The notes beneath the pieces were generated by a model. It was not told where the DNA came from. It did not search any database and saw only the letters and a program-made list of their open reading frames with translations. Positions 49,858-61,574 of a stretch of DNA of 64,000 bases are shown here, piece by piece. The number at the start of each line of letters is the position of its first letter. Position 1 is the stretch's first letter. Both the position numbers and the translations under genes were made by a program. Source of the stretch: Rhodothermales bacterium (GTDB lineage Bacteria; Bacteroidota; Rhodothermia; Rhodothermales; UBA10348); contig JAEPNP010000001.1 of NCBI GenBank assembly GCA_017643395.1, forward strand, positions 641,806 to 705,805. The letters are read 5' to 3'.

Positions 49858-49930
49858 GGGCCCGTAGCTCAGCGGTTAGAGCAGTCGACTCATAATCGAT
49901 TGGTCGTAGGTTCGAACCCTACCGGGCCCA
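49858..49930 (+). tRNA. tRNA-Ile2 (anticodon CAU), used as integration site
   Basis: A 73-base cloverleaf. The acceptor arm GGGCCCG pairs with CGGGCCC (49,923-49,929), followed by discriminator A. The anticodon loop CTCATAA carries CAU in a stem with GTCGA/TCGAT, and the T arm is GTAGG-TTCGAAC-CCTAC. CCA is not encoded. The anticodon arm and variable region (ACTCATAATCG, TTGGTCG) resemble the tRNA-Ile2 whose C34 is changed to lysidine by TilS, and C4-G69/C5-G68 are present; elongator tRNA-Met is the alternative. The 3' end is the core of the att site of the adjacent element. Confidence 0.9.
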
Positions 49931-49931
49931 C
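49918..49931. other. attL, left attachment site
   Basis: The 14-mer CCTACCGGGCCCAC at the 3' end of the tRNA-Ile2 gene, repeated exactly at 60,739-60,752. The tRNA remains intact on this side. Confidence 0.75.
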
Positions 49932-50322
49932 ATCAATACCATGTAAGCAAATAAGCGGCAGGGACTTACGTTTTCACGGGACAACAAACCCCTCCCCTAC
50001 ACCACGGTTTGTCGTCCCCTCCCGATATGCAGACAGGTCGCGATTCCCTCGCACATGCAGATTAAGGCTGTGGGGTAGGCCAATTAGAGCCGAAAAGCTA
50101 GTCGTCGGAACCACGCTTTCGGGGCTTCCACGCATGAAACCACATGGCCCGACCGGCTTTGGCAAAAACCGAAATGTGAACAAAGGCACCCGCCCCCACG
50201 CCGAAAACAAGCGGGTCCCATGGACACCTCCCCAGGAGGTGGGCTAGAAACGAGCGGGTCCCATGTCGACCTCCCGAAGGGGCACAAGGAAAAGCAAGGT
50301 GCGAACCAGGTTGACAGCGGGA
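49931..50322. repeat. Left end of the element: inverted and direct repeats, no gene
   Basis: No coding region is supported. An inverted repeat has arms GGGACAACAAACC (49,978-49,990) and GGTTTGTCGTCCC (50,006-50,018), 12 of 13 bases matching around a 15-base loop. A short hairpin, CACCTCC/GGAGGTG, lies at 50,225-50,241. The 12-mer GCGGGTCCCATG is repeated at 50,211-50,222 and 50,254-50,265. These may be integrase arm sites, a replication or transfer origin, or a terminator for the tRNA; the role is not known. Confidence 0.5.
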
Positions 50323-50946
50323 TCAAGAGAGGCTGGAATCGACCCAACGTCCGAACGCTTGAGCAACCCAGATAGTGGCCTCGACAATTAACTTGAGATT
50401 GCCTTGCATCATTTGATCCTCGACCATGGTCAGACTATTTGGACCCACCCGAAGCGTGGTCGTAACGTCGGGAATCGCGTTGTTGTGGATGATAACGTTG
50501 CGAAGTTCTCGGGCATCATCCCACCCATAAAGATCCGCCTGAGTGATCTGTCCGGCGACTTGGGATGCCTCCATGATCTCGGCCAAATAGACACGCTTGC
50601 GAACCTTCATGTTGGGCTTTAGCCCGGCCCTCAGGGCCTGCTTTGCCCCGAACTCGCAAGCCGACATCACCGACACAAAGGTGCTGTTGTTCAGCTTCAT
50701 GATCCGTTCGCCATTCTGGGCCTTCAGAGCCGCTACTTGGTTCGCTGTGAGCCCACCGGCGCTGCGATTCCACATCGTTGTGTAGTGGTCAAGAACCTCC
50801 AGACCCATTACAGCGGTGTTGAAGGTTTGGCCCAACACTCCAATCGGTTGCTCGCTGGCTGGCAAGCCGTGCTTGCTGGCGAGTCTATCTCCCTCGTCGC
50901 GGGCGACAACGGCGAGCCGTTTGTAGAGGTCTACGACTTCTTGCAT
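50323..50946 (-). CDS. HEPN-like protein (candidate RNase or defence protein)
   Basis: A 207-residue, mostly helical, soluble protein. Near residue 150 it has RELRNVIIHNN, which contains the R-x4-H pattern (R-N-V-I-I-H) typical of HEPN RNases. Residues 85-110 (KLNNSTFVSVMSACEFGAK) and the last helix (LKLIVEATIWVAQAFGRWV) fit a helical bundle. HEPN proteins act as toxins or effectors in toxin-antitoxin, abortive-infection and other defence systems. No nucleotidyltransferase (MNT) partner gene is adjacent. Lone HEPN proteins exist, so the defence role is inference. Confidence 0.6.
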   Translation of the reverse strand: MQEVVDLYKRLAVVARDEGDRLASKHGLPASEQPIGVLGQTFNTAVMGLEVLDHYTTMWNRSAGGLTANQVAALKAQNGERIMKLNNSTFVSVMSACEFGAKQALRAGLKPNMKVRKRVYLAEIMEASQVAGQITQADLYGWDDARELRNVIIHNNAIPDVTTTLRVGPNSLTMVEDQMMQGNLKLIVEATIWVAQAFGRWVDSSLS

Positions 50947-51444
50947 ATCAGGCGGGCGACTTATTCAAACAGACTGGGTAGCCCGATCTCCTCCACCTGC
51001 GGGAACGAGAGCGAGGCACAACCTGCCCTGTGATGGATTGTCCCGAAGTCGACCAGAACGACTGGTAGGTCAATCACGGTGGTACAGGATAGCAAAAGCC
51101 GACCCCACTCGGGGCCGGATCCGGCGGTCGGGCAGCTTCTTTGTTGTGGCTGAATCTCCAGAGAGTGAGAAAGGGATCGGCGGGTGGAGGAATAACCGAT
51201 GCTCCCAGCGGTCTCGATGCTCTGGTGGCGTGCGTCGCTAGGGCGATAAACTCTTTGATGGGCGTGGGATCCCTCATGCCCGGCGAGGCTCCGGTTGCGG
51301 CTACGCTGGCCCCCTTCACAGGAGGACAGATTAAGACGGCACCCGCGAAGACGTCAGCGGTCGCATTAACAACCCCCTGCGAGACCACCGGCCTGCCCAG
51401 CTGTATACCTTACACCACATCGGAATGACCAATTCATAGAGAGG
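50947..51444. other. Intergenic stretch, no gene supported
   Basis: About 500 bases between the divergent HEPN-like and HTH-protein genes. Short open frames exist on both strands (for example 51,074-51,388 on the minus strand) but none has a convincing start, homology by eye, or coding context. It probably contains both promoters. No repeat stands out. Confidence 0.4.
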
Positions 51445-52341
51445 ATGGGCGAGGACACCCTTTACACGCAGGCGCTTGAGGACTTCGGCGAGGCGGGAAG
51501 AGACCTGGTCGAAGCCTGGTTGGAGGAAGCGTCTACCATGCTTTCTGAGGGACGCTACGTCCTGTTGGCTCATCTTGAGTCCGACGTGAAGCAGGAGCTG
51601 GCAACGATCCGCAAGAGCAGCCGAAGACTGGAGATGCGGACAGCTGCGCTTCAGCTATTAGCGGAGAACATCGAAGGGGTCGCCACCCAGCAGGGTGACC
51701 TGGTTGAGTCGGGAGCCACCCATGAAAGCCTGTCATTCGAGACACGAGGCTCTTTTCTCCGGATCGGCTCATCGATGATCTCATCGCTGCGCACGAACGA
51801 CCGAGACGGAGAGCTTCTGTCAGAGGAGGAACGCCAGATGAAGCTGACCTTCGATGTGAAGATCGGTTCGAGCTGGTCAAGCCTTGTAGATCTCCTTTAT
51901 GAAAAATCTTTCGCCGAGGAAGAGGCGATGTTCGAGCTTGACGAAGTCGCCGAGCTTGTTGAGCTGCGCCATTCGGTGTTGGCTGAAGTCATCCGCCAAT
52001 ACCGTCGGGACGGTTCAGTACGCTCCGTCGAGGCAGACCCATTTGTCCAACGCCTCAAATCAGAACTTGAGGAGCATCGCGCCGAGAAGGCGCAGATACT
52101 ACGCCTTCACGCCATCGCTCAAGAGAAAATTAAAAAGCTCCGAGAAGACAAGAAGACCCTGGTAGCGCAAGCCGAGAGACCAGGGCCAGAAGCCCTCCGT
52201 AACCTGATGGATCAGTGCAGATTCAGAGGCACGGAGAAGGTGAACTACACCGAATTGGCTCGAAGACTAGGGCGATCAGACAAGACCGCCCGCCGCTGGG
52301 TCAGAGAGGCCGGGCTGGAGAGGTACGCGAATCCAGACTGA
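51445..52341 (+). CDS. Helical protein with C-terminal HTH (hypothetical)
   Basis: A 298-residue acidic protein with no signal. Residues about 1-75 are helical and Leu/Glu-rich (EDFGEAGRDLVEAWLEEAS). The middle (100-190) has mixed character. Residues 205-250 form a coiled-coil stretch (LKSELEEHRAEKAQILRLHA). The C-terminal 40 residues contain a likely helix-turn-helix, NYTELARRLGRSDKTARRWV. It may be a DNA-binding regulator of the element. I do not recognise the family. It is convergent with the GIY-YIG gene (10 bases). Confidence 0.6.
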   Translation: MGEDTLYTQALEDFGEAGRDLVEAWLEEASTMLSEGRYVLLAHLESDVKQELATIRKSSRRLEMRTAALQLLAENIEGVATQQGDLVESGATHESLSFETRGSFLRIGSSMISSLRTNDRDGELLSEEERQMKLTFDVKIGSSWSSLVDLLYEKSFAEEEAMFELDEVAELVELRHSVLAEVIRQYRRDGSVRSVEADPFVQRLKSELEEHRAEKAQILRLHAIAQEKIKKLREDKKTLVAQAERPGPEALRNLMDQCRFRGTEKVNYTELARRLGRSDKTARRWVREAGLERYANPD

Positions 52342-52351
52342 TGGCGCTGCC

Positions 52352-53398
52352 TTAGTCGATGTGCCCGCTTTCTCGAAGTAGGTCGAAGACCGATGCCCCT
52401 GCTTTCAGCTTTCTGGCAACCTCGGTGTATTCAAGCCCGAACTCACGGGCGAAAGCCTTCTTGCTGGCAAACACCTCCTTGGTGTGTTCCACTACGACGG
52501 GCTGCGACCAAGGCTTGAGTTCACCGAGCAGCTGGTAGCCCTCCTCCTCAACTAGCGCTAACACGTCTCCGTGCTTAGCCATCCAAGGTCGAGGAGCAAG
52601 CCCGAACGCTTCTTCAGCGGTCTCGCCCGCTTCAAGACGTTGGATTACCGCCGAGTACGCAGGAAGTGTTCGATCCGCTGAAAGCTTTCGATAGGCCTCG
52701 GCAGCGTTGTCGAAGGTTCTCTGCTCTCCGCCGACCTCGACTTCGACGCTGATTCCTTTCGGCCTCTTAGGTGTGCTTACGGCCTCCCGGATTGTCATCC
52801 CGCTTCTAACCCTCGCTGCGATCTGGCGACCGGAAAGCCCGTGGCGATTCAGCTTCTTGTCGGCGGCCAACTCGGTATAAGACCGGTAACGCTTTCTAAA
52901 GACCTCGAACTCTCCCTCGGTGTCCTCCCTTGCTCGAAGGGCTTGCTCGCTGGCTTTCTCCAGGCTCAGACCCTTGCCCAGCCAGTGTTGTAGAGTGGAG
53001 TAGGAAACCTCAAGCTGACGACAGAGGTCGGCCTTAGAGGAATACGAGAACGCCTCATCTCGAATGGTAATCGTACCAGCTTCTGCCAGATCCCGGCGAG
53101 TGCTAGGTGCAGCGACCCTGTTAAGGCCGTTCTCTACTGAGTCGTACTCCTTTATGAAGCGGGTCTCCAAAGCATTCAGCTCCGCCTGCGTGTCGGCTTC
53201 CGCGACCTCCTCTACTACGAACCCATCGGGCCCGAAGGCCCGGATTACTTCGTACAGCGCCCCATTGCCCTTGCTGCGCCGCGAGAAATCGCCCGCTGCC
53301 CTCACGTGCTCCTTCCAACGATCCTGCGCTCTCTTTACAGTCTGGCCGATGTAGACCCCGTTGATCATGGGGTGGGAAATCTTGTAAATGCAGCCCAT
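52352..53398 (-). CDS. GIY-YIG endonuclease with C-terminal repeats
   Basis: A 348-residue protein. Residues 1-95 are a GIY-YIG nuclease domain: CIYKISHP and VYIGQT (the paired motifs), the Arg in DRWKEHV, the metal-binding Glu in LNALETRFIKEYDS, and NGLNRV. Residues about 110-348 contain four related HTH-like repeats of about 50-60 residues, each with a serine or aromatic start and an AxxLxxG-type end (SYSSKADLCRQLEVSYSTLQ, TFDNAAEAYRKLSADRT, VFASKKAFAREFGLEYTEVA). This is the layout of homing endonucleases with DNA-binding repeats. The start ATG at 53,396-53,398 is preferred to one 13 codons upstream. No intron or host gene is seen. Confidence 0.85.
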   Translation of the reverse strand: MGCIYKISHPMINGVYIGQTVKRAQDRWKEHVRAAGDFSRRSKGNGALYEVIRAFGPDGFVVEEVAEADTQAELNALETRFIKEYDSVENGLNRVAAPSTRRDLAEAGTITIRDEAFSYSSKADLCRQLEVSYSTLQHWLGKGLSLEKASEQALRAREDTEGEFEVFRKRYRSYTELAADKKLNRHGLSGRQIAARVRSGMTIREAVSTPKRPKGISVEVEVGGEQRTFDNAAEAYRKLSADRTLPAYSAVIQRLEAGETAEEAFGLAPRPWMAKHGDVLALVEEEGYQLLGELKPWSQPVVVEHTKEVFASKKAFAREFGLEYTEVARKLKAGASVFDLLRESGHID

Positions 53399-53500
53399 TG
53401 TGTTGCGGGATTGGCGGTCGAATGAAGGCAAACGCAAGCCTAAACGTCAACCCCTAACTCAATTTGCGAGTGCTGCTGACGAATCATTAGTTCGACATAG

Positions 53501-53516
53501 TCCGGGATATCCCGGA
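53501..53516. promoter_or_regulatory. Perfect 16-bp palindrome before the excisionase-like gene
   Basis: TCCGGGATATCCCGGA reads the same on both strands and lies 36 bases upstream of the HTH gene start. A related TCCGGATTATCCCGG stretch occurs inside the replication gene near 54,012. It could be an operator or a replication-protein binding site. Confidence 0.45.
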
Positions 53517-53552
53517 ATCCGGAATGGCACCGGTGTGCCACAGGCGGCGGCC

Positions 53553-53879
53553 ATGTCTAACTCAAACATGGTTGCTGTCATGCAAAACCAGTTTGCGATC
53601 CTTTCGACTGAGGATCTCTCTCTCCTCGTTTCCAAGGCGGTTGAGGCAGTCCTCAAGTCCCAGATGCCCCGACTGGCCGAGCGCATCAACTCGCCGGAAT
53701 ACTTCACCCAGGAGGCAGTATGCGCACTGACGGGGTGGTCACGTCGCCAACTACACTACCGCCGGAAGAAGGGATTCATCCCCTACTGCAAACGCGGACG
53801 CACTGTGCTCTTTAGAGCCGAGCAGGTGTACGCTTGGATCGAGGAGGGTTACGTACCTGCCGGGAGGTCGCTGTCATGA
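53553..53879 (+). CDS. Excisionase-like helix-turn-helix protein
   Basis: A 108-residue protein starting MSNSNMVAVMQNQF. The C-terminal 60 residues are a winged HTH of the MerR/excisionase type: QEAVCALTGWSRRQLHYRRK then GFIPYCKRGRTVLFRAEQVY. The Arg/Lys-rich RRQLHYRRKKG part is the likely recognition helix. Such proteins direct excision of tRNA-integrated elements or control their replication genes. The ATG at 53,553 is preferred over an open extension of 55 codons. The stop overlaps the start of the replication gene (ATGA), so the two are coupled. Confidence 0.75.
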   Translation: MSNSNMVAVMQNQFAILSTEDLSLLVSKAVEAVLKSQMPRLAERINSPEYFTQEAVCALTGWSRRQLHYRRKKGFIPYCKRGRTVLFRAEQVYAWIEEGYVPAGRSLS

Positions 53880-54649
53880 GCGGTTCCCATCCTCTAATAA
53901 CAAGCCCCCGTCGTGCAGATAATCTGTCGCTCAGCCCACGACGGTGCAAAGTCGGGACGGACTGGCTGCGCATATCGCTCTGTCAATACGAGATCGACGC
54001 AGACCACCCCTTCCGGATTATCCCGGCCGAACACACCACCCCGGCCGCCCTGTTCCAATCGGGGGACACCGTCTATTGGGGCGTTTGTGCCGCACTTCGG
54101 CAGCCGGGGTTCTCCGCGAGGATTTTCCGGCCCGCCGGGGCCCCAGCTTCCCTTTTTCAGATTCGAATAGAGGCCGCGTGTCAACTCGACGGCATAAACT
54201 TCCCCCTCGCTGATGAGTCGGAACTCCTGCGCGCACTCGCCAACTTGGAGGGAGACTTAGCTGATCTAGGGATTTACACGGACCTGGGCCGCGCGAAGAT
54301 GAGCCAGCTGGAAGTCGGTCAGGACATGGAGATATCCGGACCGCCTGAGGCCTACCTCGAAGTGATCGCCGACCGACGTGCACCATTCCGGGCCCGCCGC
54401 TATTCCCAGGGAAACTGGAGATGCTGGTCGAATCGAGAACGTTCGCTAGCCGTGTATGACAAGTCGCAGGAGATGCGTCGGAGGGGGCGGGATCCGGGGC
54501 AGTCGATTCTCCGGTTCGAGACTCGATTGAAAACCCCACGGTCGGTTCACATCCGAGCTGGATTGAAGACCGTATCGGAACTCCGCCAAAAGGGAATTTC
54601 CGAGGCGCGCGATCACCACCTCCGACTGGTGGGGAGGTTACTCAAATGA
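53876..54649 (+). CDS. Replication initiation protein, filamentous-phage/plasmid gene II-like
   Basis: A 257-residue protein with the pattern of Phage_CRI/gene X-type replication proteins: a late AVYDKSQEMRRRGRDPG segment, followed by ILRFETRLKTPRSVHIRAG, which lie in the right order for the family. Gene II proteins nick and rejoin DNA at an origin to start rolling-circle replication. I could not place the catalytic Tyr with certainty. It is coupled to the HTH gene upstream (ATGA overlap) and to the next gene downstream (ATGA overlap at 54,646-54,649). This suggests that the element replicates when excised. Confidence 0.6.
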   Translation: MSGSHPLITSPRRADNLSLSPRRCKVGTDWLRISLCQYEIDADHPFRIIPAEHTTPAALFQSGDTVYWGVCAALRQPGFSARIFRPAGAPASLFQIRIEAACQLDGINFPLADESELLRALANLEGDLADLGIYTDLGRAKMSQLEVGQDMEISGPPEAYLEVIADRRAPFRARRYSQGNWRCWSNRERSLAVYDKSQEMRRRGRDPGQSILRFETRLKTPRSVHIRAGLKTVSELRQKGISEARDHHLRLVGRLLK

Positions 54650-54948
54650 GAATCGTCGATGGACTCAGGGCAGAAATGGAGGAATATCGCCGAGAACACG
54701 GGGCCCGATGGGTTTCGGCCTACACGAAGGATATGGGCGCATCAGCCTTGGAAAGCTTGGTCGGTCGGAAAAAACTCCTCGCGACGGCGAGCCAGGTCGG
54801 CGGTAGTTCTGCTAGAAGGGCCCTCCAGCAAGCGGTATCTCATGCCAGGAAACGCCGGGAGACGCTCAACCGCACAGCCGTTGGAAATCGAACCCATCGT
54901 GCGCTCCTGGTTGAGATGCGGATGAAGTTGCTTGGTTCGGCAAGATGA
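54646..54948 (+). CDS. Small basic protein coupled to the replication gene
   Basis: A 100-residue, Arg/Ala-rich, probably helical protein (KDMGASALESLVGRKKLLAT, RRALQQAVSHARKRRETL). There is no motif or signal, and I do not recognise the family. Its start overlaps the replication gene stop by 4 bases, so it belongs to the same three-gene operon and may be a replication accessory or copy-control protein. That role is inference. Confidence 0.6.
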   Translation: MRIVDGLRAEMEEYRREHGARWVSAYTKDMGASALESLVGRKKLLATASQVGGSSARRALQQAVSHARKRRETLNRTAVGNRTHRALLVEMRMKLLGSAR

Positions 54949-55213
54949 ATTGCACATCGCTCCCGTATGGTCAGCTCATGGTAGCCGGTCTGGGTTGCGG
55001 AGGAAAAGCTCGCCCCCCACCCCAGCTATTCGCCAACGACGCTGTTCAAGACTCGGCCTTTTTTGCGTGCCATCTGTTGTACCCTGAGCCGTACCTCCTT
55101 ACGCCCAAATGAATCCGCGTTCAAACAGCTCTGCGCACCGGAGGCTCGCACGGCGACACAATAACCGGGACACGTAGGTCGAGCATCTGACGCAGCGCCG
55201 CCGATCCAGGCCG

Positions 55214-56485
55214 ATGAGTTACAGACCCCCCGATAGCCCCGCTGTTGCGGCCATGATCGCCGCCTCCGCGCTTTTCGCGATCATGGCCCAGTTGGTTCAG
55301 GGAGTTGGCGCTGGGGCCTGGTCAGTTCTGGCTCGTGGCACGGTCCCGCTCCTTCTGCTTCTGGTCCTCAGTCCTAGAGCGATCCTTCGTGCCGCGCGGT
55401 CGAGGGAAAGGCCGCTTGTTCTGCGCACCACACTCGCAGCCATCACCATTTTGCTCGCGTTCTACGCCCTGGAGCGCTTGCCCACTTCGCTGGTGGCGGC
55501 ATCGCTAAAGGCAGCACCAGTTTGGCTATTTGTCCTGGCCGTGGTGTCTGGCAGGATTCGACTTGGCCGAAGCAGCCTTTTCCTGATTCCGGTTGTCCTG
55601 GGAATCGTGGTACTAGGATGGCCGAACGAGCAGCATGCAGGCATACCGATGGCTGCCGCACTCCTTGCGGGGCTCGTGGCAGGGGTCTCCTACTCAATGC
55701 TCGCTCAGGTTCGCCGGGCAATCGCGACCGAGGTCGTCGCACATTTTTCCATTGGCCTGACTGTCGTTGGAGCCGTTAGCATCCTGCTAACTGGTAAGGC
55801 TATCCCCTCGGGTTCTTGGCCGACACTATTCGCCATTGGGGCTCTGGCCTATGCTATGCAGTGGCTCGTGGCATTTGCTTTCCGACATGGACGGGGGGAG
55901 ATCATCTCGTTTGTTGGCTACTTCGGGGTCCTGTTCGCGGCTGCCCTGGATATTTTCGTCGCGGATGTGATCCCAGGCACGGGTCAAGTTGTCGGGGCAG
56001 CTCTTCTGCTATCCGGCACGCTTGGTCTTCTAGCCCTAAACCCTAGGCAGATCATGGTCCTGGCCAAGGTGAAGGCTGGTGGATCACTCCAAGAGCTGCG
56101 GAGCTTTTCTGGGGCTTTGGGGGAGGCGATTGCCACGGCTGAGGAATCGACCAGTATCCAGATGGGGATCCGAGTCACTGACGCGGTGATCACCGATGCC
56201 TGGCTCCGGAGAGCCTACGATGAGAGTAGTCTGGGATCGCACGCTCACGGCGTCCTGATTGCGTTCAACCCAGAGGCCCGGTCGCTTGCTGCAGTCGGTG
56301 GCACCGGAATACCCAGGTTCAGATTCGAGCGCGACTTTCGGCACGCGCTGAACCGAGCTTCGAATGCCCATCAGGCTCCTGTGGCTGTCGTGGCGGCGAT
56401 GACGCAACTCGTGGTCGCACTTTCGCCAGAGTATCCCCCAGACGCGAGTGTGGAGGATCTACCGAATGACGTCATTTTTGGCTAG
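55214..56485 (+). CDS. EamA-family (DMT) transporter with C-terminal domain
   Basis: A 423-residue protein. Residues 1-285 form an EamA/DMT transporter with about ten hydrophobic segments (such as LLLLLVLSPR, LFLIPVVLGIVVLGW, GAVSILLTG). Residues about 290-423 are a soluble C-terminal domain (GIRVTDAVITDAWLRRAYDE, HGVLIAFNPEARSLAAVGG). That domain is not part of standard EamA proteins of about 300 residues and I do not recognise it. DMT proteins usually export amino acids, nucleosides or small metabolites. The gene is convergent with the acyltransferase-like cassette and overlaps its last gene by 14 bases, which suggests a shared function such as export of the cassette's product. Confidence 0.8.
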   Translation: MSYRPPDSPAVAAMIAASALFAIMAQLVQGVGAGAWSVLARGTVPLLLLLVLSPRAILRAARSRERPLVLRTTLAAITILLAFYALERLPTSLVAASLKAAPVWLFVLAVVSGRIRLGRSSLFLIPVVLGIVVLGWPNEQHAGIPMAAALLAGLVAGVSYSMLAQVRRAIATEVVAHFSIGLTVVGAVSILLTGKAIPSGSWPTLFAIGALAYAMQWLVAFAFRHGRGEIISFVGYFGVLFAAALDIFVADVIPGTGQVVGAALLLSGTLGLLALNPRQIMVLAKVKAGGSLQELRSFSGALGEAIATAEESTSIQMGIRVTDAVITDAWLRRAYDESSLGSHAHGVLIAFNPEARSLAAVGGTGIPRFRFERDFRHALNRASNAHQAPVAVVAAMTQLVVALSPEYPPDASVEDLPNDVIFG

Positions 56486-57038
56486 GTGCCCGGAGGATGG
56501 CCTCCGCGATGCGGGCCGCTGCGGAATCTCCGTACTTGTCCAGATCCAGCTGGGCAATGACGAAAGGGATTCCTGGAACCTTAGGCGACGGCAGCGGGCT
56601 TACCTCGTAGCCGATATCCTCAAGGAAACGAAGTCGTCGCGACGTTGCGGCTAGGCGTCCCACCAGCGTACGCACTCCCGCGCCGGTAGCGCGCTTCATC
56701 AAGGCCAGTCGCAATCGCATAGAAAGGCCTTGACCGCCGTAGTCCTGGTGTGTGGCTCCACGACCAAGCACTCCGAACGGAGCTGGATGGAGCGAGCGAT
56801 ATTTGGGGATACTCAGCGAGTCCGCCAACTGCGCGTGGTCCGCCAAGACCTGCAGTCGCATAGTGGAGACAATCGACCCATTGATTTCGCATACCATCAC
56901 GAGAGCTGCATCGTCCGAATCGTTCCACAAGGCCCAGCTGTAGTCAGGCTGCCGCAGATTCGTCCCACGCGAATAGGCTCGAACTCTCAGGTCTGATACC
57001 TCCGACGCCCGCTCCCGCCCAACCGTAAGAATCTTCAT
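56472..57038 (-). CDS. Acyltransferase-like (GNAT-fold) protein, paralog 1
   Basis: A 188-residue protein. It has LRVRAYSRGTNL near the start, SIVSTMRLQV at about 55-64, and LGRGATHQDYGGQGLSMRLRLA followed by RTLVGRLAATSRRLRFLEDIGYE, with the G-G-x-G loop expected for acyl-CoA or acyl-ACP binding. The order R...STMR...GRGA...G-G-G-L fits GNAT and autoinducer-synthase-like (LuxI/FeeM-type) enzymes. Paralogs 2 and 3 lie directly upstream with the same layout. The start ATG overlaps the stop of paralog 2 (ATGA). The substrate is unknown. Confidence 0.7.
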   Translation of the reverse strand: MKILTVGRERASEVSDLRVRAYSRGTNLRQPDYSWALWNDSDDAALVMVCEINGSIVSTMRLQVLADHAQLADSLSIPKYRSLHPAPFGVLGRGATHQDYGGQGLSMRLRLALMKRATGAGVRTLVGRLAATSRRLRFLEDIGYEVSPLPSPKVPGIPFVIAQLDLDKYGDSAAARIAEAILRAPSQK

Positions 57039-57709
57039 GACTGGGCCGGGACGAATCCCGTTCCAAGTCGATGACGATAAACCGCCGCCGGTCGGCTCTG
57101 CCTACGTGGCCGACGTCCCCTTTGGGACGCTAGTTGCCGGGGGGGGGGCAGGAGGTTGGCGTACGATTGGAGGTCAGCCTCAAGTCGCCTAATTGCCGAG
57201 TCGCCGTAGACGCGCAGATCCAGTTCGACCAGGACCTTTTCAATGCTTGGGGTGTCTCGCGACTGCAGGGGCATTGCTCGATATCCAAGTTCGCCGAGAT
57301 ACGATAGTCTGCGGGACTGGGCAGCCACGAGTCCGACCAGTGTGTGCACGTTTTGGCTAGCGGCAATCCGCATCAGGTGGAGCCTCAGGTTCATCGAGAG
57401 CCCCAATCCCCCGAATCCCCGCTTGGTCGCCCCACGCCCCAGTAGCCCGAAAGGCGGCTCACCACTAGGCCGACAGGCTGGGCCCAAGATCTTAGCTAGG
57501 GACGCTTCGTCCGAGACTGTACTCAAGCGCATAGTCGAAACGAGCGCCCCGGTATTCTCAACTGCCAACACCGTCGAAGTGTCATCTGTTGTGTCCCACT
57601 CCGCCCACCTGTAGTCACTCGCCTTCGTATGCGCACCCTTGGAGTAGGCTGAGATCCGAAGGCGAGAGATTTCGTCTTTGTGTGATGCGTCGACGCGGAT
57701 TATCTCCAT
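57035..57709 (-). CDS. Acyltransferase-like protein, paralog 2, with homopolymer-dependent tail
   Basis: A 224-residue form as read here. The core matches paralog 1: LRISAYSKGAHT, LVSTMRLSTV, LGRGATKRGFGGLGLSMNLR, TLVGLVAAQSRRLSYLGELGYR. Near residue 190, ten C on the coding strand (57,139-57,148) give LLPPP and carry the frame into an Arg-rich tail that ends exactly at the ATGA overlap with paralog 1. With 9 or 12 bases in the tract the frame would end at once (stop at 57,130-57,132). The start ATG lies 2 bases after the stop of paralog 3, so the three genes are one operon. Confidence 0.7.
   Translation of the reverse strand: MEIIRVDASHKDEISRLRISAYSKGAHTKASDYRWAEWDTTDDTSTVLAVENTGALVSTMRLSTVSDEASLAKILGPACRPSGEPPFGLLGRGATKRGFGGLGLSMNLRLHLMRIAASQNVHTLVGLVAAQSRRLSYLGELGYRAMPLQSRDTPSIEKVLVELDLRVYGDSAIRRLEADLQSYANLLPPPRQLASQRGRRPRRQSRPAAVYRHRLGTGFVPAQS
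57139..57148. repeat. Poly-G/C tract (10 bp) in paralog 2
   Basis: Ten consecutive G on the + strand (C on the coding strand). Long mononucleotide runs are prone to slippage. A change of 1-2 bases alters the C-terminus of paralog 2 and its coupling to paralog 1. Confidence 0.85.
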
Positions 57710-57711
57710 CT

Positions 57712-58315
57712 CTATGTCAGGCCCCTGATAGCGGCTTCGACAGCGGGAAGGGATTGCCCACCAAGGTCGCGCACGATTCGGTGAATAGCGGATTGTCCTT
57801 GGCGTTCAAGATCAAGGACTACGAAGGTCTTGTCGCTGGTGAAGCCAATGGGATGCTCGCCAGGCATGCTAAACGCCTGATACCCAAGGCCCCGGAGGTA
57901 GGCGAGCCGACGCGCATTTCCTGCGACGACCCCGCACAAACACTTAAACCCACGCTGACATGCCTCCACCATAAGCCACACCCGGAGATTCATGGAGAGC
58001 CCCCCCCCCGTGAGTGGGACTAGTTGCCGCTCTACCCAGGCACCCAGCGGGAAATCTGAGATCAAGTCCAGTGGTGAGAACGTGTAGTTCGTCGTCGACC
58101 CCTGACCGAGTCTCGTGGAAAGTCAGGCGCATCGTGGACACTGGTTGATCTCCATCCCAGATCGCCGCAACCACCGCTTTCTCGTCGATAGAGTCCCATG
58201 CAGCCGCTGATGCGTTCCGGACGTTTGCGCCTTGGGAGTAGGCTCGCAATCGAAGTTGCTCAATTGCGCGGTAGTCACTTGTGGTAACGGTTTCCAAACG
58301 TAGGGTGTCTCGCAT
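57712..58315 (-). pseudogene. Acyltransferase-like protein, paralog 3, frame broken at a poly-G tract
   Basis: The N-terminal half (from ATG at 58,315) reads LRLRAYSQGANV, PVSTMRLTFH, LGRAATSPTHGG. The C-terminal half, in a different frame, reads GLSMNLRVWLMVEA, CGVVAGNARRLAYLRGLGYQ, and ends GLT before TAG at 57,712-57,714. The join is a 10-G tract (58,000-58,009). Nine or twelve G would connect the halves, and twelve would restore the same spacing as in paralogs 1 and 2 (about 201 residues). All paralog motifs are intact on both sides, so this is a recent or reversible break, a phase-variable OFF state, or a base-count error. As given, it encodes a truncated product. Confidence 0.7.
58000..58009. 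repeat. Poly-C/G tract (10 bp) at the frame break of paralog 3
   Basis: Ten consecutive C on the + strand (G on the coding strand) within the conserved GGxGLS loop. It is a candidate contingency locus. Confidence 0.85.
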
Positions 58316-58348
58316 TTCGGCCGCCTGCGTTTCGTCTCCCTGGCCATC

Positions 58349-58759
58349 TTAGCAAGCACGCTTGCCGACGGCAAGCCAATTGACTCGGTATTGCTTCCTG
58401 CTCCAGACCGACCAAAACTGTAAGCGGAAGCCGTCTGCAGTCTTGTATTCCACGGACGCCCCGCCGAACCCCGCCTGCCTAGGGTCTTCGAGTTCATGCG
58501 GCATCGCAAAGTGCGAATTCGTGGCCACCACCGAGTACTTCTCGTCGGCGAACCCAAGACCGGCTATGTCCTTGGTCACCCAGTAGAATCGATTTGAGTT
58601 ACCTGGATGGCCGTATTCACCGGTTGTCAGATCTACTTCGCCCCACACCAAGCGGAGTTCGCCGACGTCGACCGCGCGGGTGTACTCTGGACCTTCCGAC
58701 CTAAGGTCATCTACCTGAACAAGTTGGCAGATCAGATTCTGGAGTAGTTGGATGTCCAT
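58349..58759 (-). CDS. Hypothetical protein
   Basis: A 136-residue protein starting MDIQLLQNLICQLVQ. It contains FYWVTKDIAGLGFADEKYSV and a late FGGASVEYKTADGFRLQFW, a mix of strands that suggests a small alpha/beta fold. There is no signal or recognised motif. The ATG at 58,757-58,759 overlaps the start region of the divergent gene by 12 bases; a longer start at 58,840 is possible. The next gene downstream, 33 bases away, is paralog 3, so it may lead the acyltransferase operon. Confidence 0.55.
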   Translation of the reverse strand: MDIQLLQNLICQLVQVDDLRSEGPEYTRAVDVGELRLVWGEVDLTTGEYGHPGNSNRFYWVTKDIAGLGFADEKYSVVATNSHFAMPHELEDPRQAGFGGASVEYKTADGFRLQFWSVWSRKQYRVNWLAVGKRAC

Positions 58760-59326
58760 GGGTCCTCGGCGTCTTGTGAGTTCCTCGTCTGCTACGATTA
58801 TCCTTGCAGTTGCTACGGATTGCGTAACCACCAGAACCAACCAGTGCCACCCGACCTCTTCCGAGACCTTTTCGTTGACCCCGAACTGCTTCCGCAGGTT
58901 CAGGAGGGCTGGCTTGAACTCTTCCCAGGAAGCATGTCTGGATACGATTCCAGCTGGAATGCTGGTCCTGCGGGTTCAATCAAGGGCGTGCTTTGGGCGG
59001 CCTCCAAATGGTTGCCGAAAGCCAGAATAGGAATCGACCTTAGCGGCTGGAGTTGCAGGGGATGTGGTTACGCAAGCTTTCTAAGCATGCTTTGTCGAGT
59101 CCTCGATCACACAAATCGCCCAACCTTTGAGGAGAAGATCCTTCCCTACGTCGAGTCTCTCCGCGACGACCCAGATTTCGCCGTCAATGCGGAAGCAGCC
59201 CTGCCGCTTGTTGTACGACTCCATTCGCCAAGCGCCCGCCTACTGGACCAGCTAGAGTACTACCACGAGAGAAAGCGGGTCATGGAATTCGCCATAGGCC
59301 TAAGGTGGTGGGGGCAGAGTACCTGA
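58748..59326 (+). CDS. Hypothetical protein with several Cys residues
   Basis: A 192-residue protein as read from TTG at 58,748. The N-terminus carries CEFLVCYDYPCSCYG and the centre DLSGWSCRGCGYASFLSML, so it has several Cys in pairs. They could bind a metal, although the spacing does not match a known zinc ribbon with certainty. The C-terminal part is helical (ARLLDQLEYYHERKRVMEF). The start is uncertain because it overlaps the divergent gene. I do not recognise the family. Confidence 0.5.
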   Translation: MDVHGSSASCEFLVCYDYPCSCYGLRNHQNQPVPPDLFRDLFVDPELLPQVQEGWLELFPGSMSGYDSSWNAGPAGSIKGVLWAASKWLPKARIGIDLSGWSCRGCGYASFLSMLCRVLDHTNRPTFEEKILPYVESLRDDPDFAVNAEAALPLVVRLHSPSARLLDQLEYYHERKRVMEFAIGLRWWGQST

Positions 59327-59418
59327 GCGTTCCACGGGCAGCATCGGTCCAACAAGCTCACAGCCCCACTCCATGCCCAGGCAGCGACCCTTGGTGTGCT
59401 TGGCGCTCGCTCAGAACG

Positions 59419-60600
59419 CTAGAAGATCGACTCGACAAGCGCGTCCACAGCATCTTGGTCAAAGCTGCTCAAGTAGCTCTGGGTAATCTGGATATTTGAG
59501 TGTCCTAAAGCCTTGCTAATCGCGTACAAGTCCCCTCCTGACACTCTCGCGTGGTCTGCGAAGGAGTGTCGAGCGACGTGCATTGTAAGACCGCCAGATT
59601 GCACGCCCGCCGCTTCCGCCACCTTCTTGATGTTTCGGTTTGCAATGACGTTGCGGGAGGAGATCCGCCTCTTGGCGGTTGGCAAGTCTCGTAGGTCCCC
59701 AGAGCGCAGGTACGGAAATAGGCAAGGAAAGCCTGCCAAGGGATATCTAGTTGAGATAACGAGTGCCTGTTCAGGTAGCTTTACGCTGACGGGTTGGCCG
59801 GTCTTCATCATGCGATAGTGAAGCCTGCCGTCTACCATATTCTCGGGCTTGAGCATGCAGAGGTCGCCGAAGCGAACCCCGCTCGCATAGAAGGAAAACA
59901 GGAAGGCATCCCGAGAAATGGCCAGCGCACCGCCCTCGCCCAGCGACAGAGATTCTATCGCGGCGATCTCCTCCCGCTTCAGTCGTCGCTTCTGTACTGG
60001 CTCGGCGCTGGGCCGTTGATACCCTCGAAACGGATCGGTGTCCGAGCTTAGGAGACCACGAGCCACCTGTCGCCTATGAAGGCGGCGGAGTCGCTTCAGG
60101 TGATTGCGGACGGTGTTGTTGCTATTACCATCGATCTCCCGCAGGAAAGACTCGAATCGCACGAGAGAGGCTGCATCTAGATCCCTCCAGGCGACGAGCT
60201 TGCCGAAGCATCGCTCGACCTTATTTCTGAGGACTCCGAAGTGCTTGAGCTCCCAGACCTTGCCCTGCCCCCCCAGGACGTCGCGGAACGCGTCCAGATC
60301 GTCGAGTAGCAATCCAGACCCAATCTTGGCAGCCCTCACCACTGCGCGTGCTGTGGGGGCGTCCAGGCCCCTCTCTCGGGCCTCGTTGAGCATTTGCTCA
60401 ATCTTGCGGTTGTAGGCATCCGCGAGATCGTGGCTGCTGCGAACTCGCGCCCGCCGCTCATTCCACTCTGTAGTCCTTACGGCTATGCCAACGGCGTACT
60501 TGCTGGTCTTCCTGTTTACCGTGACCCGGATGTAGATCGGGCAGGTACCGTCTGCCCGCAGCCGATCTTTTCTGATAATGGCCTTGATGGAGGCGGGCAT
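59419..60600 (-). CDS. Tyrosine recombinase / integrase
   Basis: A 393-residue integrase of the Bacteroidota type. An arm/core-binding N-terminal region (KAIIRKDRLRADGTCPIYIR, then about 95-195 of SAM-like helices) is followed by the catalytic domain, with Arg in YASGVRFGDL, Lys in RMMKTGQPVSV, the H-x-x-R of HVARHSFADHA, His in LGHSNIQ, and Tyr nucleophile in ITQSYLSSF. The ATG at 60,598-60,600 is chosen over an extension of 8 codons. It lies 139 bases from attR1 and reads toward the element's interior. Confidence 0.92.
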   Translation of the reverse strand: MPASIKAIIRKDRLRADGTCPIYIRVTVNRKTSKYAVGIAVRTTEWNERRARVRSSHDLADAYNRKIEQMLNEARERGLDAPTARAVVRAAKIGSGLLLDDLDAFRDVLGGQGKVWELKHFGVLRNKVERCFGKLVAWRDLDAASLVRFESFLREIDGNSNNTVRNHLKRLRRLHRRQVARGLLSSDTDPFRGYQRPSAEPVQKRRLKREEIAAIESLSLGEGGALAISRDAFLFSFYASGVRFGDLCMLKPENMVDGRLHYRMMKTGQPVSVKLPEQALVISTRYPLAGFPCLFPYLRSGDLRDLPTAKRRISSRNVIANRNIKKVAEAAGVQSGGLTMHVARHSFADHARVSGGDLYAISKALGHSNIQITQSYLSSFDQDAVDALVESIF

Positions 60601-60738
60601 TCGGGGACAACAGTGGGGCAACAAGTATCGAGGCCGAGTGCAACGAGACTGTGCAACTCGTGACTCAACACACGTATTTTAGGTATTTTGAAGCGGTATT
60701 GCACAGGGATGCTGCTTTTCGGAACAAGATGTTGTTGT

Positions 60739-60752
60739 CCTACCGGGCCCAC
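60739..60752. other. attR1, right attachment site
   Basis: An exact copy of the 14-mer at the tRNA 3' end, CCTACCGGGCCCAC, in the same orientation. The sequence continues TATGGGG. Confidence 0.7.
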
Positions 60753-60878
60753 TATGGGGCAGCCCTGTTTGCCGAAGGCCGGCAGGGCTGTGCCATATCA
60801 TGCCGGTCGGGTTCGAACCGTATCAGGTTCACACGAGCGAAGCGACTGACGGAGCGAGCCTCAGCGAGCGCAGTAAAC

Positions 60879-60892
60879 CCTACCGGGCCGAC
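60879..60892. other. attR2, second att-like site
   Basis: CCTACCGGGCCGAC, one base different from the att core, with ACTATG following as at attR1. It lies 140 bases beyond attR1, immediately before the lipoprotein start codon. Between the two sites, GGTTCGAACC at 60,809-60,820 resembles a T-arm, so tRNA-like remnants may be present. Confidence 0.5.
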
Positions 60893-60893
60893 T

Positions 60894-61574
60894 ATGACAA
60901 TTCCCATGCTCAAGCGTCTGCCAATACTTCCGGTCCTGCTTCCACTTCTAGTGTTGGTCGGATGCGACACCGGTGCAACCCTGGACGGAGATTCCGGTCA
61001 GGTGACCGAGCTGGTTCCCCTGGGCCTCGGTCATTCATGGATCCTGCAGCGTACCGGTTGGATCCGAACCGATCACCAGAACGAGTCCTTCTCCTGGGTG
61101 GAGTCCTGGGTCGTAGACAGGGATACACTTATCGAGGGCGAAACGTGGTACAGTGTGCTGCAGACATCCACAGAGAGCACTCCAGCATTCTCCTGGCGAA
61201 GCGGGTGGCACACAAATCGCACTGACGGCATCTGGCGGTTCGACAATGGCGGCAGCAGCCAGGAAGCAGAGCTATGGATTCCGCTCCTGAACGCGGAGGG
61301 AGACGCGGTCACTACCATCCCGGGCACGGAATACAGACTGGTCGGCGTCTCTGATGACGGACGCTCACGAACTTTCCGCAGGACAACGACATGGCTGCCG
61401 GGCGTAGACGTGGAACTGCCGGTACCGCAGGTTGACCTCATCCGGATATCGGAAACCGAAGGATTTGTCCATCTGAGCGATTTCGTGTTCTCCAGCGAGG
61501 CGGGTGGACCTTGGTCCAAGACCATGCAGCAAGAGTGGAACCTCTTGCGATTTCAACCGGGCACGCGCCGTTGA
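60894..61574 (+). CDS. Lipoprotein of unknown function
   Basis: A 226-residue protein with a lipoprotein signal: MTIPMLKRLPILPVLLPLLV then LVGC, with Cys-24. The mature part is strand-rich (SWVESWVVDRDTLIEGETWY, IWRFDNGGSSQEAELWIPLL, FVHLSDFVFSSE) and may be a beta-sandwich. There is no recognised catalytic motif. The frame is open upstream to 60,651, but the ATG at 60,894 gives the signal. The start codon directly follows the attR2 core (ACTATG). Confidence 0.75.
   Translation: MTIPMLKRLPILPVLLPLLVLVGCDTGATLDGDSGQVTELVPLGLGHSWILQRTGWIRTDHQNESFSWVESWVVDRDTLIEGETWYSVLQTSTESTPAFSWRSGWHTNRTDGIWRFDNGGSSQEAELWIPLLNAEGDAVTTIPGTEYRLVGVSDDGRSRTFRRTTTWLPGVDVELPVPQVDLIRISETEGFVHLSDFVFSSEAGGPWSKTMQQEWNLLRFQPGTRR

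Follow-up and report, generated by a model that had tools for sequence, protein, structure and literature searches.

Within the 64,000-nt window of a Rhodothermales genome analyzed here, three tandem minus-strand paralogs carry the only two G/C homopolymers longer than 7, a run of ten C (C10, as read in the mRNA) near the 3′ end of the middle gene, paralog 2, and a run of ten G within paralog 3. The question raised by this arrangement is whether the tract in paralog 2 represents a selected device that varies both the C-terminus of the protein and its coupling to the following gene, paralog 1, or a repeat that is merely tolerated there. The reading favored here is that it is a late, hypermutable and tolerated homopolymer whose slippage is mostly neutral and of minor effect, a view we hold to be about evenly balanced between right and wrong. 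We rate it the most likely explanation, ahead of a miscounted run and, behind that, a selected switch. The features discussed are listed in Table 1.

Table 1. Positions, in the window, of the acyltransferase paralogs, their homopolymers and the surrounding island
Feature	Position	Strand	Remarks
Probable integrated island	49918..60752		14-nt repeat CCTACCGGGCCCAC at 49918-49931 and 60739-60752; tRNA-Met 3′ end; lower GC
Paralog 1, predicted GNAT-fold acyltransferase (188 aa)	56472..57038	-	Start codon within ATGA overlap at C10
Paralog 2 as assembled (C10, 224 aa)	57035..57709	-	Conserved domain up to about residue 180
Variable tail or spacer, run to paralog 1 start	57035..57138	-	Non-coding-like in C10 frame
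C10 homopolymer of paralog 2	57139..57148	-	G10 on plus strand; codes Pro188-Pro190; codons 188-191
Paralog 3, split between two frames at its own run	57712..58315	-	
G10 homopolymer of paralog 3 (mRNA sense)	58000..58009	-	In GGxG CoA-binding loop
Tyrosine recombinase (integrase) of island	59419..60624	-	Phage_integrase 8.8e-15; Arm-DNA-bind_5 3.3e-14

Substitution of other run lengths for C10 in the sequence yields three alternative ends for paralog 2. At lengths of 7, 10 and 13 the frame continues to a TGA (last base 57035) and ends in a 4-base ATGA overlap with the start of paralog 1 at 57038, an overlap present at these lengths only. At 9 or 12 it meets a TAG two codons on (last base 57130), giving a protein of 192 or 193 residues (...LLPPPGN) and leaving 91 nt to paralog 1, and at 8 or 11 another TAG (last base 57102, about a dozen codons on), giving 201 or 202 residues and a spacer of 63 nt. 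The preliminary description had read the tract and its consequences in the same way, with a spacer of about 92 bases at the shortest ending; the tract lies exactly where it was placed, and the three endings are reproduced by frame reading. With a run of 9 the protein ends near the lengths of the other paralogs, and with a run of 10 it gains RQLASQRGRRPRRQSRPAAVYRHRLGTGFVPAQS, a tail that extends about 30 residues beyond what the ends of the other paralogs predict.

What such a change of ending would mean depends on where the protein fold stops. Paralogs 1 and 2 are 47-48% identical and paralog 3 is 34-47% identical to both, according to the part compared; the last conserved residues lie at about 180 of 192. 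In an AF2 model of paralog 1 (pLDDT 79.5) the last helix occupies residues 166-183 and is followed by coil, while the model of paralog 2, built with two sequences, was too poor for use (pLDDT 42). Structural matches span residues 1-172 of the paralog 1 model, the best being FeeM (2g0b_C; Z 15.5, rmsd 2.8 over 160 residues, 9% identity), and include the CoA-dependent acyl-homoserine lactone synthase RpaI (6wn0_B; Z 14.3, rmsd 3.5 over 175). The motif GGxGLSM, corresponding to the CoA-binding G-x-G loop, is conserved in paralogs 1 and 2. On the paralog 1 model the paralogs belong to the GNAT fold superfamily and are predicted acyltransferases. The modeled fold of paralog 1 is that of FeeM and the acyl-homoserine lactone synthases; however, the trio scores 18.4, 19.9-20.3 and 14.8 bits against Pfam FeeM (PF21926) and does not reach its curated cut-off of 27 bits, and among the hundreds of GNAT structures that match the model many score nearly as high as FeeM, so that no substrate is implied. 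Of the FeeM-family genes of relatives, the one read (L070, in a genus relative) adjoins an acyltransferase gene and appears to encode a distinct, lipid-type protein; it was set aside as a reference for the C-terminus.

Because the run of paralog 2 lies past the last helix of the predicted fold, the enzyme domain would be whole at every length and paralog 2 would never be inactivated. The run would code for Pro-Pro-Pro after the final helix of a GNAT/FeeM-like fold, its length setting a short unstructured tail, and with the domain complete ahead of it a change in length would be tolerated and probably mostly neutral.

The coding character of the tail was assessed using a codon model for which long genes of the same genome served as the training set, with the 33-codon tail scored in each frame and stop codons ignored. 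By frame, the score per codon was -0.495 for C10, -0.346 for C8/C11 and +0.076 for C9/C12, against an in-frame median of +0.045 for windows of island genes (5th percentile -0.248) and out-of-frame medians of -0.40 and -0.41. The C10 tail thus scores like out-of-frame sequence and does not look selected as protein, and codon usage in the tail of paralog 2 favors the C9 frame over C10. At 57035-57138 the C9/C12 frame goes on scoring as coding-like beyond its TAG, a feature that chance or descent from a longer paralog 2 may explain. At their 3′ ends, paralogs 1 and 2 share a short DNA similarity just past the run (GGCAnCTAG...CCAAA...GACGTC; shuffle p 0.0075), and this would favor the C8/C11 frame. 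As guides to the ancestral run length, to judge from the sequences, 3′-end similarity and codon usage are in conflict, and neither favors C10.

The same reserve applies to the ATGA overlap. Paralog 1 begins with ATGAAG, and any open frame in the C10 register must therefore end at the TGA that this start contains; 40% of shuffled tails were open in that register. The overlap is consequently weak evidence of designed coupling. Upstream of the paralog 1 start (GGGATTCGTCCCGGCCCAGTC-ATG) no strong ribosome-binding motif was found, so that an effect of the spacer on translation of paralog 1 is possible, as far as the sequence allows a judgement. Under the favored reading of a tolerated homopolymer, strand slippage in vivo would shift the run length over time and move the stop among three positions within about 100 nt, leaving either a spacer of 63-91 nt or a 4-nt overlap, and the consequence for translation of paralog 1 would probably be modest tuning at most.

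Paralog 3 presents a different picture, and one that speaks against a mostly neutral reading. Its run breaks the core domain, yet both halves keep coding-type divergence: relative to paralogs 1 and 2 the differences are biased toward third positions on either side (0.44/0.35/0.69 by codon position after the break, paralog 3 versus paralog 2), which suggests a recent or reversible break, or an artefact. Joining the halves takes a run of 9 or 12. Of the two runs, that of paralog 3 makes the better candidate for phase variation. The C10 and G10 runs are of opposite sense in the mRNA and occupy non-homologous positions, and are thus independent of each other; both stand at 10 and each departs from the family-like phase by the same offset. 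This shared offset could be the outcome of a shared length miscall, while chance or a shared state would also fit.

A miscall of this kind, in which the length of one or both runs was misassembled, would make the true run of paralog 2 9 (or 12 or 11). The protein would then end within 2-12 codons, and the cell would have neither the C10 frame and tail nor the ATGA overlap. Such an error would account for two runs of the same length that each need 9 or 12 for a family-like frame or length, as well as for a C10 tail that is non-coding-like, and some long-read assemblies are known to have difficulty with runs of 10 or more (PMC9262707). The rest of the assembly does not share the symptom: most sampled in-gene runs of 7-8, together with two of 9, lie within long intact reading frames, giving no sign of a general homopolymer problem, and runs of up to 12 are reported in it. 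We regard misassembly as a serious contender that is nevertheless somewhat unlikely.

How unusual the two runs are can be gauged from the genome at large. In a 464-kb sample, G/C runs of 6, 7 and 8 occur at 254, 32 and 4 per Mb, respectively, and the only runs of 10 are the two in the trio. The whole genome (4.51 Mb) contains 14 G/C runs of 9 or more, six of which are of 10 or more, and the chance of any two lying within 870 bp is 0.006 among the six and 0.035 among the fourteen. Such clustering, which was spotted after the fact, deserves notice without being extreme. Another close pair exists, two runs of 9 bases at a distance of 74 bp (C4:119087 and 119161) in non-coding DNA around the start of a nadA-like gene, so that such pairs are not unique to the acyltransferase operon. 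Outside the trio, two of the 14 runs of at least 9, both of 9 bases, are clearly inside long intact genes (C1:1593502 and C2:309737), the others being at gene edges, non-coding or ambiguous. Among 31 related genomes, runs of exactly 10 number 0-12 per genome.

A G12 run at C1:219764-219775 (L031:3765-3776) directly follows the TAG that ends a sigma54-type response regulator gene, and a G11 run at C1:586087 lies about 30 bp past a stop codon. In an order relative (G038, L086:2137-2146), an HD-domain gene has a proline-coding C10 run just past its domain, followed by a low-complexity tail, and its coding-like sequence changes frame at the run. A late C10 run is therefore not special to the acyltransferase family.

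These counts bear on the proposal that the operon is under selection for variable expression. According to this reading, reversible slippage would alter both the C-terminal end of paralog 2 and the coupling of that gene to paralog 1. The run of paralog 3 would serve as an on/off switch. The preliminary description had argued that two independent homopolymers in one gene family are unlikely by chance; this stands insofar as two runs of at least 10 in one operon are improbable (p about 0.006), and is tempered by the close pair in non-coding DNA. Improbability on this scale tells against a mostly neutral origin and in favor of phase variation, as does the otherwise intact appearance of paralog 3 on either side of its run. 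Selection for variable expression is not thereby shown, given that the paralog 2 run follows the domain, that the C10 tail resembles out-of-frame sequence, that the overlap arises so readily in shuffled tails, and that the other long G/C runs of the genome, mostly non-coding and few of them within genes, do not appear to amount to a clear repertoire of switchable genes. Selected phase variation is accordingly rated unlikely.

Translational phase variation is familiar from the poly-G/C contingency loci of Neisseria, Campylobacter and Helicobacter, in which an in-gene G/C run of 8 or more is typical. The run of paralog 3 would fit on/off switching of this type; that of paralog 2 differs in following the functional domain, where it cannot turn the gene off. 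A nearer parallel is provided by Helicobacter canadensis, in which late homopolymers alter C-termini with expression continuing at each length (Snyder et al., 2010; PMC2823697). In one instance, HCAN_0660/0661, the tract decides the merging of two adjacent genes (PMC2823697). C-terminus-switching late homopolymers are thus already known, and lend the selected switch a precedent that includes gene merging. Paralog 2 resembles these loci in having, late in its frame, a tract of at least about 8 identical bases and a different short C-terminus at each length, with the core kept. In H. canadensis, however, poly-G runs of 11-14 are found among the rows listed, affecting many genes, and length mixtures are described at the population level (PMC2823697), whereas paralog 2 has a single 10-base C run in its mRNA and belongs to a genome with few long in-gene runs.

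Variation at fixed DNA length is a further alternative. RNA polymerase slippage, or else +1 frameshifting by the ribosome, on CCC-C in paralog 2 and GGG-G in paralog 3, would give a mixture of products from each gene. C and G runs are known +1 shift sites, and, starting from a length of 10, reaching the family-like frame takes a +1 shift in both genes. In paralog 2 only a tail would change, and no relative conserves either site, no homolog having been found in the collections searched; recoding is considered highly improbable. Those collections comprised 100 related genomes, 394 genomes of the phylum, PLSDB plasmids, INPHARED phages, IMG/VR and GTDB contigs, none of which yielded a homolog of the trio.

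If the runs are truly variable, homopolymer phase variation, C-terminal switching and variable coupling would be extended to an acyltransferase operon on a mobile island and without detectable relatives. A three-gene island operon with two homopolymers, one turning paralog 3 on and off and the other setting the tail and coupling of paralog 2, would then produce cells within a clone that differ in their acyltransferase mixtures, a scenario we consider distinctly unlikely. If they are not variable, the locus carries two cautions, namely that a gene may carry at its end a G/C run of 10 that arose unselected or was mis-sized in assembly, and that coupling is poorly supported by an ATGA overlap reached in a single frame.

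The trio is carried by a probable integrated island of about 11 kb with a GC content of 57-60%, compared with about 63%. Its boundaries are a tRNA-Met gene (49858-49931) and, on the other side, 14 nt that duplicate the 3′ end of that tRNA. In the two genus relatives no empty integration site was found, the left flank being matched by the tRNA only. In addition to the integrase, the island holds a gene for a GIY-YIG endonuclease (52352-53437), HTH proteins and several orphan genes. An EamA-type transporter gene (55214-56485) is convergent with the trio, and the C-terminal ~120 residues of its product are without a convincing family. At the right-hand boundary, an att-like 18-mer, CCTACCGGGCCCACTATG, occurs at 60739-60756 and again, with one mismatch, at 60879-60896, the second copy perhaps marking a second or older insertion boundary.
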